64,000 nt of DNA. It comes from Rubritalea marina DSM 17716. GTDB taxonomy: Bacteria; Verrucomicrobiota; Verrucomicrobiia; Verrucomicrobiales; Akkermansiaceae. Shown in pieces: positions 41,586-44,033 of the stretch (position 1 is the stretch's first letter; every line of letters starts with the position of its first letter). The DNA lies in contig NZ_KB899249.1 in assembly GCF_000378105.1 (NCBI RefSeq), forward strand, positions 62,001-126,000. The letters run 5' to 3'. Position numbers and translations under genes: made by a program. Under the pieces are notes generated by a model, which was given only the letters and a program-made list of their open reading frames with translations, was not told the origin of the DNA and ran no database searches.

Positions 41586-42992
41586 ATGAGTAACCCAATT
41601 GTTGAAATCACAGACCAAGAGTTGCCCCACAATCTCAAGACATTATGGCTTAAAGCATTATCTGCAGTTGAGATTAAAAATTTTAGTTATGCAATCAGCT
41701 TGGTTAATGCTGTGTTGAAAGAAGCTCCTGGCTTTTTGGAAGGACGCAGAGTGGCTCGTAAGTGTGCGGCTATGGTGGCAGCTGAGAGTGGGAAAAGGAA
41801 AGGTGGGGGCATGACGGCGCTTCTTTCTGGTGGGATGTCTACGATGAAGCTTGGCTCCGCAGCCAAGAAAGATCCTTTGGCCGCGTTGATTCAGATTGAG
41901 AAGGAACTGGAGAAGGACCCATACGACCCACAAGTCAATGAGGTTCTTCACGAGACGGCACTGAGTATCGGCTTCAAAGAAACCGCAGCATTTGCCCTCG
42001 AGACGGTGCGCGAAGGCGCACCAGAAAATTCTAAAGTACTGCATCGCTTGGCTGAATTTTATCTGGCTGAAGGACAGCCATCTAAGGCCTCCGACGTCTA
42101 CAACGACATTGTGAAGCATAACCCAGCCGACATCGATGCGGTGAAAGGAGCCAAAGATAGCTCAGCCAAGGCATCAATGCAGGAGCAAAAATGGGATTCC
42201 GCCAGTGGTATTCAAGATCTGAAGAAAGACGCCGCTAAGGCAGCCGAACTTGAAAATGCTGACCGTGCCGCTCTCACCAAGGATCAACAGGTGCAAAAGC
42301 TCTCTGGTCTCATCGACCAATACAACCAAGATCAAAATAACCTCAATGTGGTGAAGCAAATTGCAGCGCTCTACGAGGAAATGGAAAACTGGACCGACGC
42401 ACACGCATTCTATGATTGGGCTTACCAGCTCAGTAATGCGGACTCCGCTCTCAAGAAGAAGGCGTCTGATCTTGGAGATCGCGTGGCACGCGAGCAGGTG
42501 AAAGCTATGGAGGCTCAGCTTGCCGCGGATCCAGGCAATGCAGAGCTTCAGGCTCAAGTGGCAGAAATCAAGAAAGACCGTGCTCGCGAGGGAGTGACCG
42601 TGGCTCAGCAACGCGTTGAGCAAAACCCGACTGACCCGCAGCTTCGCTTCGAACTCGGTACCGCGCTCTACGATGCTGGCGAGTACAGCGATGCCATCCC
42701 GCACTTGCAGCAGGCGACACGCAACCCGCACATCCGCACCAAGGTGCTCCTCACCTTAGCACGTGCTTTCGATGGCAAGAATATGTTCGACCTCGCTGTG
42801 AAGCAGCTCTCTGATGCATTGGCTGACCTTCAGGCCATGGATGACACGAAGAAAGAGGTGCTCTACGAGAAAGGCCTGATTCACGCGAAAATGGAAGACG
42901 CTGTCCGCGCACTCGAGTGCTTCAAGGAAATCTATGAGGTCGATTACGGCTATCGTGATGTGGCACAACGTGTGGAGTCTTCCTATAGCTAA
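41586..42992 (+). CDS. tetratricopeptide-repeat protein
   Basis: A 468-aa soluble helical protein with TPR units at about 10-50, 125-190 (HRLAEFYLAEGQPSKASDVY) and 340-460 (QLRFELGTALYDAGEYSDAI, then KVLLTLARAFDGKNMFDLAV). A Gly/Met-rich stretch (KRKGGGMTALLSGGMSTMKL, about 72-91) separates the first repeat from the rest. No signal peptide is seen, so it is probably a cytoplasmic scaffold. It is monocistronic and ends at a strong terminator. Partners are unknown. Confidence 0.85.
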   Translation: MSNPIVEITDQELPHNLKTLWLKALSAVEIKNFSYAISLVNAVLKEAPGFLEGRRVARKCAAMVAAESGKRKGGGMTALLSGGMSTMKLGSAAKKDPLAALIQIEKELEKDPYDPQVNEVLHETALSIGFKETAAFALETVREGAPENSKVLHRLAEFYLAEGQPSKASDVYNDIVKHNPADIDAVKGAKDSSAKASMQEQKWDSASGIQDLKKDAAKAAELENADRAALTKDQQVQKLSGLIDQYNQDQNNLNVVKQIAALYEEMENWTDAHAFYDWAYQLSNADSALKKKASDLGDRVAREQVKAMEAQLAADPGNAELQAQVAEIKKDRAREGVTVAQQRVEQNPTDPQLRFELGTALYDAGEYSDAIPHLQQATRNPHIRTKVLLTLARAFDGKNMFDLAVKQLSDALADLQAMDDTKKEVLYEKGLIHAKMEDAVRALECFKEIYEVDYGYRDVAQRVESSYS

Positions 42993-43025
42993 TCGATTCA
43001 CTCTAAGAATCTGTTGAAAATCATC

Positions 43026-43062
43026 ATGCCGTCAGCTAATCTCATGGTTGACGGCATTTTTT
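43026..43062 (+). terminator. terminator of the TPR gene
   Basis: ATGCCGTCA/TGACGGCAT 9-bp stem, 14-nt loop, followed by TTTTTTC. It isolates infA from the upstream gene. Confidence 0.93.
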
Positions 43063-43171
43063 CTACGAAATTTTTTCAGATCCTCTGAAATAAGTATTGC
43101 GTAGATCAACGAAATGAAGGATATGACGGCAGTCGCACTCGCAGCTGGGTGTGAAACGGATCACAATTAAC

Positions 43172-43187
43172 AAAGGAGATACTTATC
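43172..43187 (+). promoter_or_regulatory. strong Shine-Dalgarno and AUC start codon of infA
   Basis: AAAGGAGA at 43172-43179 is followed, 6 nt after its last G, by ATC at 43185. Between the in-frame stop TGA at 43152 and the first internal ATG at 43338 there is no ATG, GTG or TTG in the IF-1 frame, and the downstream ATG would remove the first beta strands. ATC therefore decides the start. Confidence 0.75.
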
Positions 43188-43496
43188 GCTGGTAAACCAA
43201 AAAGAGGGGGCGGACGCCGCCCTAGAAGGAACGCTCGAGGCAGAAATGATCGTCGCTTTAAGAAGAAGGAAGACGACGGCCGTGAGGACAAGTCTGTAGA
43301 GATCGAAGGTACGATTAAGACGGTACTAGCAGGCACCATGTTCAAGGTTGAGCTCCCCGGTGGCCACGAAGTTCTAGCTCACATCTCTGGTAAGATGCGC
43401 AAGCGATTCATCCGACTTGTGGTTGGTGACCGCGTTCGCATGGAAATGTCTCCATACGATACCACCAAGGCACGTATCACCTTCCGAATTGGCTAA
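43185..43496 (+). CDS. infA: translation initiation factor IF-1 with basic N-terminal tail, AUC start
   Basis: IF-1 binds the ribosomal A site during initiation. The OB-fold body is complete: [60 protein letters not shown], ending FRIG. Ahead of it is a tail of about 33 mostly basic residues ([19 protein letters not shown] followed by KKK), which E. coli IF-1 (72 aa) lacks; the total is 103 aa. The start is ATC after a full SD, unlike every other gene in the window. A sequencing error of ATG to ATC cannot be excluded. Own terminator downstream. Confidence 0.93.
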
Positions 43497-43555
43497 GCCA
43501 GTGTTTGAACGATCCCCTCATCTGGTGATACACCATTGAGGAATTCAAATTTTCG

Positions 43556-43588
43556 AGCTTTGAACATGATTTGTGTTCAAAGCTTTTT
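43556..43588 (+). terminator. terminator of infA
   Basis: AGCTTTGAACA/TGTTCAAAGCT, 11-bp stem and 7-nt loop, followed by TTTTTC, 60 bases after the infA stop. Confidence 0.93.
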
Positions 43589-43685
43589 CATGTCTGATAG
43601 AATCGAAATCACATTTCTATTTACTTTGGAATTTTTGTAGAAATTTCGAGACGAATGATTCGTATGATACAAGCAACGAATACCC

Positions 43686-44033
43686 ATGAAGATTTACGCT
43701 CATAAAACCTGTGGTTCCTGTAAGAAGGCGCTCAAGTGGCTAGCCGCTAAGGGGCTAGAAGTAGACGCTATTGCTATTGCTGAGAACCCGCCACAACTTG
43801 GAGAGCTACAATTAGCTCTCGATTCTGGCTACACCCTGAAGCAATTATTCAATACCTCTGGGCAGGAGTACCGTAGACGTGACATGAAACATAAGCTTCT
43901 GACGATGAGTAACGAGGAAGCCCTCAGCGAGCTTGCTGCTTCTGGTATGCTAGTGAAACGACCATTCTTGATTGCAGATGGCCATGCCTTAGTAGGCTTC
44001 AAAGAAGAAGCTTGGACTGAAGTGTTAGGGTAG
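43686..44033 (+). CDS. ArsC/Spx/YffB family thioredoxin-like protein
   Basis: A 115-aa ArsC-fold protein. MKIYAHKTCGSCKKALKWLA carries the CxxC at Cys9/Cys12, and the C-terminal MLVKRPFLIADGHALVGFKE with the Arg-Pro is the family's second signature. It could be an arsenate-reductase-type reductase or a Spx/MgsR-like regulator; the CxxC pair and the lack of an ars operon leave this open. It is 51 bases upstream of the SLC13-type transporter on the same strand. Confidence 0.82.
   Translation: MKIYAHKTCGSCKKALKWLAAKGLEVDAIAIAENPPQLGELQLALDSGYTLKQLFNTSGQEYRRRDMKHKLLTMSNEEALSELAASGMLVKRPFLIADGHALVGFKEEAWTEVLG

Follow-up and report, generated by a model that had tools for sequence, protein, structure and literature searches.

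The window, that is, the whole 64,000-nucleotide stretch of Rubritalea marina DSM 17716 that was analysed, is part of contig 3 of a 30-contig draft genome of 3.01 Mb, whose nearest named relatives belong to the Akkermansiaceae, order Verrucomicrobiales. It carries infA, encoding for the translation initiation factor IF-1, and an initiator tRNA gene (Table 1). Based on its score against TIGR00008 (88.6 bits, with a cut-off of 61.15), the infA product is a member of IF-1, and it also matches PF01176 (77.8 bits). Translation from 43185 gives a basic tail and the whole of IF-1, as noted in the first-pass annotation. Solved IF-1 structures cover residues 33–102 at the widest, the best one covering 35–101. 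The IF-1 proteins of relatives also possess basic tails, which differ in length.

Table 1. Features at the infA locus and the initiator tRNA gene of the window.
Feature	Position	Strand	Basis or comment
infA, 103 codons + TAA	43185..43496	+	proposed AUC start; TIGR00008, PF01176; start by conservation
Proposed start codon ATC	43185–43187	+	read from sequence
infA stop codon TAA	43494–43496	+	read from sequence
Shine-Dalgarno AAGGAG within AAAGGAGA	43173..43178 (AAAGGAGA 43172–43179)	+	6 nt ahead of infA start
UU preceding the infA start codon	43183..43184	+	possible extra pairing with initiator tRNA A37 and A38
In-frame TGA upstream of infA start	43152..43154	+	read from sequence
Internal ATG, first canonical codon of the IF-1 frame	43338..43340	+	not taken as start
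Basic Arg/Gly/Lys-rich N-terminal tail, codons 1–34	43185..43286	+	translation
IF-1 OB-fold core, residues 39–101	43299..43487	+	PF01176 match range
Promoter-like block TTGCGT ... GATATGAC	43097..43127	+	authors' reading by eye
Terminator-like hairpin upstream of infA	43026..43057	+	consensus scan
Terminator-like hairpin downstream of infA	43555..43585	+	consensus scan
Initiator tRNA gene, anticodon CAU, loop CUCAUAA	63653..63729	+	RF00005 match, authors' reading

Since terminator-like hairpins flank the gene, infA looks monocistronic. If the TTGCGT...GATATGAC block is taken as a promoter, the leader would measure roughly 50 nt; many relatives also have a TTGC(G/T) block upstream of infA, and a consensus scan of the region did not report the block of the window. 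An Rfam search of 42900–43800 gave no matches. It should be noted that an 18-codon ORF, from ATG 43114 to TAA 43170, closes just ahead of the infA Shine-Dalgarno (SD) sequence and probably lies upstream of the infA transcription start.

In the following, AUH stands for AUC, AUA or AUU, and ATG, GTG and TTG are referred to as canonical starts. Read codon by codon, the IF-1 frame has no canonical codon from the TGA at 43152 to the ATG at 43338, as had been claimed; 62 codons follow that TGA, the last being that ATG, with none of the three ahead of the latter. The list of ORFs of at least 40 aa held a single entry for this frame, a 52-aa ORF from 43338. Judged by the match ranges of PF01176 and of the structures, a start there would cut the OB fold, in keeping with the earlier reading, and this ATG was therefore rejected. 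The SD precedes ATC 43185 by the 6 nt given in the first-pass annotation if counted from AAGGAG, and by 5 nt if counted from AAAGGAGA. An in-frame ATA at 43179 was also considered as a start and is implausible, as it adjoins the SD without any spacer.

It had been stated that this SD is the only full one in the window. In substance this holds: none of the window ORFs of at least 150 aa has an SD match of at least 6 bases ahead of a candidate start within the first 60 codons. Literally it does not, since the two strands together contain 28 copies of AAGGAG; where it lies near a canonical codon, the two cases with the longest frames (18479 and 15712), the only two checked, are gene-internal. Within the source genome taken by itself, the odds of a 6-base SD arising by chance are appreciable, one being present in 8 of 155 internal controls. 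The weight of the infA SD comes from its conservation across relatives, and all 11 infA loci of the window's genus have a 6-base SD ahead of AUH.

To place the start among relatives, infA start codons were called for 145 sampled Akkermansiaceae loci (a PF01176 match is present in 253 of 260 family genomes), giving 55 AUH and 90 AUG calls. The family genomes comprised the best rows by E-value together with picks for genus coverage, g9 and g16 being under-sampled (the genera are numbered g1 to g16). L039 and L042 (no tblastn match), eight paralogue loci below 60 bits and L146 (contig end) were left out. The calls were made by genus and pattern. In g7, g10 and g13, the last ATG before the core was taken; in g3, AUH was called only if it had an SD of at least 5 bases, and ATG otherwise; in the other genera, an SD-bearing AUH was preferred. 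L105 and L381 are ambiguous among the 55 AUH calls. In g3, an ATG exists at all 34 ATG-called loci, and of the 15 AUH-called loci 13 are devoid of any canonical codon.

The comparison with relatives that the first-pass annotation had proposed placed AUH at the homologous position in 13 of the 16 genera (g1, g2, part of g3, g4, g5, g6, g8, g9, g11, g12, g14, g15 and g16). The remaining g3 loci and those of g7, g10 and g13 were called ATG. At 35 of the 145 loci, no canonical start lies between the upstream in-frame stop and six codons before the core (g1, 6; g2, 1; g3, 13; g4, 1; g5, 2; g6, 1; g8, 2; g9, 4; g12, 3; g16, 2); the remaining 20 of the 55 AUH loci have the homologous AUH plus some canonical codon in this stretch. 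The distinct AUH leaders (n = 47) include 33 with ATC, 7 with ATA and 7 with ATT. Isolates with an AUH infA are Persicirhabdus sediminis (ATA), Roseibacillus persicicus (ATC) and Akkermansia muciniphila CSUN-56 AmIII (ATC), and ATG was found in A. glycaniphila and Haloferula rosea. At the order level outside the family, an in-frame ATG is present in 51 of 52 loci, the remaining one being cut by a contig end. At the class level (n = 50), 39 loci have ATG and 10 lack it but carry GTG at the corresponding position; 1 was not assigned.

A frame test was performed by counting pairwise substitutions at codon positions 1/2/3 in five groups, the pairs not being independent and g3 being taken without L136, L381 and L396. 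Downstream versus upstream of AUH, the counts were 64/81/367 versus 231/260/278 in g12, 280/140/392 versus 149/165/170 in g3, 72/71/185 versus 70/85/71 in g1-ATA, 122/116/154 versus 60/65/56 in g1-ATC, the window's own group, and 84/55/128 versus 106/98/111 in g9. Indels in multiples of three accounted for 28 of 28 downstream and 0 of 42 upstream in g12, 27 of 27 and 5 of 130 in g3, 13 of 13 and 5 of 35 in g1-ATC, and 4 of 8 and 3 of 17 in g9; g1-ATA had no indels downstream and 2 of 41 in threes upstream. Frame constraint thus begins at AUH, clearly in g12, g3 and g1-ATA and more weakly in g1-ATC, owing to its third-position signal, and in g9, owing to its downstream indels. The spacer behind the 6-base SD measures 4–7 nt (9 nt in L136 and L381), and since such varying spacers interrupt every frame that would cross them, the start does not lie upstream. 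The codon ahead of AUH is variable, and the one after it is mostly Ala. In several family loci a stop codon sits one codon before AUH, and an in-frame stop lies at most two codons ahead of it in loci of g4, g5, g8, g9, g15 and g16.

Two alternatives concern the start itself. IF-1 might be translated from elsewhere, namely from a canonical codon further upstream, from a different non-AUG codon or from ATG 43338. The 20 AUH loci with some canonical codon in the stretch leave room for this, and among the canonical codons listed (no more than the final four of each locus) those with an SD of at least 5 bases are found in L032, L105 and L381; an SD-bearing canonical codon upstream of AUH is present solely in L105 (g16), hence its ambiguity. 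However, the 35 loci have no such codon to offer, where examined, the frame boundary and spacers differing by single bases rule out an upstream start, and a start at ATG 43338 would cost the protein part of its OB fold, so that we regard a start elsewhere as very improbable. The other alternative, raised in the first-pass annotation, is a single-base error turning ATG into ATC during sequencing or assembly, for which the draft state of the source genome could speak. It was ruled out for practical purposes, because separate assemblies from 13 genera, isolates included, carry AUH at the homologous place. We conclude with high confidence that infA starts at AUC 43185, a reading based on conservation in the sequences compared.

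SD usage was assessed in 224 kb of the source genome. Of 161 ORFs, 6 have an SD of at least 6 bases ahead of a candidate start, versus 8 of 155 internal controls, so there is no enrichment; the corresponding numbers were 8 of 77 versus 4 of 75 in the relative G063 and 1 of 78 versus 0 of 70 in the relative G135. This scarcity agrees with PMC10783764, where Akkermansia is listed among the SD-scarce genera that retain a conserved CCUCC. A search of 39 genomes for the anti-SD pattern was successful in 14, including two AUH-infA genomes (G021 and G024); in the other 25, the source genome (G000) among them, the 16S end was not found.

Against this background, an SD of at least 5 bases is present in 33 of the 47 distinct AUH leaders versus 1 of 90 AUG leaders, and in 24 of 38 versus 1 of 56 without g3, where the SD was used in calling. 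It should be noted that the association is partly built in, through the SD criterion in g3 and the preference for SD-bearing AUH elsewhere, and that the Fisher values ignore relatedness. On the tree described below, the SD changes three times, and the independent-pairs test comprises two pairs. The association between SD and AUH is striking, yet it rests on few independent events. The SD is not essential to the AUH design, because 14 of the 47 AUH leaders have none; an SD of at least 5 bases is lacking at the AUH loci read in g4, g5, g6, g8, g9, g15 and g16. TT at positions −2 and −1 occurs in 33 of 47 distinct AUH versus 16 of 90 AUG leaders, including 13 of the 14 SD-less AUH leaders, and T at −1 in 45 of 47 versus 37 of 90; TT before the start changes ten times on the tree. 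The predicted accessibility of the leaders showed little difference (unpaired 0.62 for 51 AUH versus 0.67 for 90 AUG). In addition, several of the SD-less AUH leaders (L097, L098, L102–L104 and L173–L176) share a C-rich and then a T-rich stretch before ATCGC, for example CAACCC..TTTTAAGTT.

The initiator tRNA of the window has an A29–U41 pair where E. coli has G29–C41; PMC11497404, which names the E. coli pair, ties this stem to start-codon discrimination. The pattern GGGCTNNNAACCC matched three places in the source genome, none with CAT; it missed the initiator tRNA because Akkermansiaceae carry A29–U41. Among 43 tRNA matches in the source genome, 30 loci were read, with one initiator-like tRNA, anticodon CAU. 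A family-wide initiator pattern matched in 230 of 260 genomes. A29–U41 is present in every match among those listed (g3, g15, g7 and part of g13), with AUH or AUG infA alike, and therefore this stem fails to explain the difference between them. The loop CUCAUAA would permit pairing of U-1 with A37 and of U-2 with A38, which accords with PMC5622118, where the SD and the bases at −1 to −3 are described as compensating for weaker starts.

The genomes also contain a second, short IF-1-like protein (L002, G000 contig 13, 14808–14960; L037–L045). In most of the ten loci read it has about 71–73 aa, with no basic tail, an ATG or GTG start and no obvious SD. Two of these proteins scored 31 and 38 bits against TIGR00008, below the cut-off of 61.15. 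The short protein could serve as a backup for IF-1.

The parallel with infC drawn in the first-pass annotation was borne out in the same genome, where infC has AUA behind GGAGGA. Of the 79 family genomes examined, 56, the source genome among them, have AUH at the homologous place of infC, and GTG stands there in the 23 others, which are all 23 of the Akkermansia genomes read (L306, L436 and L438–L458). Both genes have AUH in g1, g2, g4, g5, g8, g9, g11, g12, g14, g15 and g16; g6 also has both, with infA and infC read from different genomes. AUG infA accompanies AUH infC in g7, g10 and g13, AUH infA accompanies GUG infC in the A. muciniphila group, and AUG infA accompanies GUG infC in other Akkermansia. 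Since all combinations occur, AUH on infA is not a by-product of AUH on infC, and because Akkermansia infC has GUG, the two genes need not be co-controlled. A search of 227 kb of the source genome for SD plus AUH retrieved, besides infA and infC, three further frames (24631 in the window, L367 and L368), which were judged by eye; such a search cannot reach SD-less AUH genes.

According to a tree of 76 genomes built by a quick search from IF3 and IF1-core proteins (234 columns), the AUH/AUG state requires three changes, two of which are forced by the starred branches alone. We read this as one gain of AUH at the base of the family followed by two apparent returns to AUG, one in g7, g10 and g13 together and one within Akkermansia; this polarity depends on the outgroup having AUG. 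The AU test rejected a single clade of the family's AUG rows, a group chosen post hoc (p-AU 0.0006). Within AUH rows the codon switched six times among C, A and T, and AUH/AUG changes inside the family number two; these counts do not bear out an avoidance of G at the third base and fail to show that AUG is avoided.

Based on the above results, we propose the following course of infA initiation. The ordinary initiator tRNA would read AUC 43185, so IF-1 would still begin with Met. The third base of AUC would be unpaired with the anticodon, and initiation would thus be weak and dependent on other contacts, presumably the UU ahead of the codon and the full SD, which is uncommon in this SD-scarce lineage. 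In the literature, IF3 discriminates against its own AUU start at high IF3 concentration (PMC9410913) and speeds the dissociation of non-canonical complexes (PMC8266586), and IF1 enhances IF2 and IF3 (PMC9031893). If IF3, aided by IF1, also rejects AUH codons in Akkermansiaceae, high initiation-factor activity would lower the synthesis of IF-1, and low activity or relaxed stringency would raise it, like AUU on E. coli infC. AUH would limit infA translation, and the net effect may be a buffered IF-1 level. We lean slightly towards the view that infA, like infC, has a start codon discriminated against by IF3 and IF1, allowing feedback on IF-1; that such feedback acts is about an even call.

Several points speak against simple feedback: the 14 SD-less leaders among 47, the two groups with AUG infA and the GUG of Akkermansia infC. 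In the main rival, AUH would be a fixed brake that sets a low, constant IF-1 output without sensing initiation factors. AUG leaders nearly all lack an SD (1 of 90 has one), as if strength were balanced, and compensation of this kind between start and SD is described in PMC5622118. However, infC has AUH in many of the same genomes, and in E. coli the infC codon senses IF3 (PMC9410913), so that we find a constant brake rather unlikely. It is also conceivable that the SD is the sensor and that a minority of ribosomes, those whose anti-SD is free, translates infA, as for rpsU of Flavobacterium (PMC9976891). A strong infA SD in an SD-scarce genome (PMC10783764) would suit this, as would the anti-SD, intact in the AUH genomes G021 and G024. 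But the strong SD is not found throughout, being absent at 5 bases or more from g4, g5, g6, g8, g9, g15 and g16, and such a role for the SD seems improbable. To return to feedback through the start codon, we tentatively extend it to the whole family, as an ancestral IF-1 stringency control via AUH infA that was lost twice. Its SD-less lineages, the seven genera just named, might use AUC or AUU with UU, so that tRNA pairing extended upstream replaces both the third base pair and the SD. This wider scheme is less probable than the feedback itself.

Among initiation-factor genes, infC is already known to have an AUH start; on infA, where it is apparently ancestral to the family, it appears to be new. 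Feedback by start-codon discrimination is known for IF3, and a family-wide AUH infA would add a second fidelity factor. Control of the IF-1 level would become directly testable in a culturable and widely studied genus, with AUG-start relatives, some of them in the same genus, as ready-made controls. It also raises the question of how AUC initiates without an SD. Gene callers restricted to ATG, GTG and TTG would probably truncate or miss IF-1 in AUH genomes. A literature search by titles and abstract openings, with subscription papers and arXiv mostly uncovered, returned no report of AUH on infA. Genes preferring non-AUG starts are reportedly treated by Gvozdjak and Samanta (arXiv), which may bear on the AUH infA. 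Autoregulation is not known for E. coli infA.

The closest known system is E. coli infC, likewise an initiation-factor gene with an AUH start (AUU, under IF3 feedback) and a product involved in start-codon discrimination. It differs in that the gene here is infA, that IF1 is an accessory and not the main discriminator, that the feedback on infA is a proposal and that the SD occurs in part of the family only. E. coli pcnB is likewise a chromosomal gene with a rare AUH start, whose AUU limits expression; unlike infA, it does not encode an initiation factor, and PMC9410913 describes limitation, not feedback. In Flavobacteriales, rpsU (bS21) has an extended SD and is autoregulated by bS21-free ribosomes (PMC9976891); like infA, it is a translation gene that carries a strong SD in a lineage where SDs are scarce, whereas the oddity of infA also includes the start codon. 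Finally, the truncated annotation of Borrelia burgdorferi pncA (BBE22) was likewise mended via an AUU start (PMC13398362), but pncA is a metabolic gene unconnected to the stringency of initiation.
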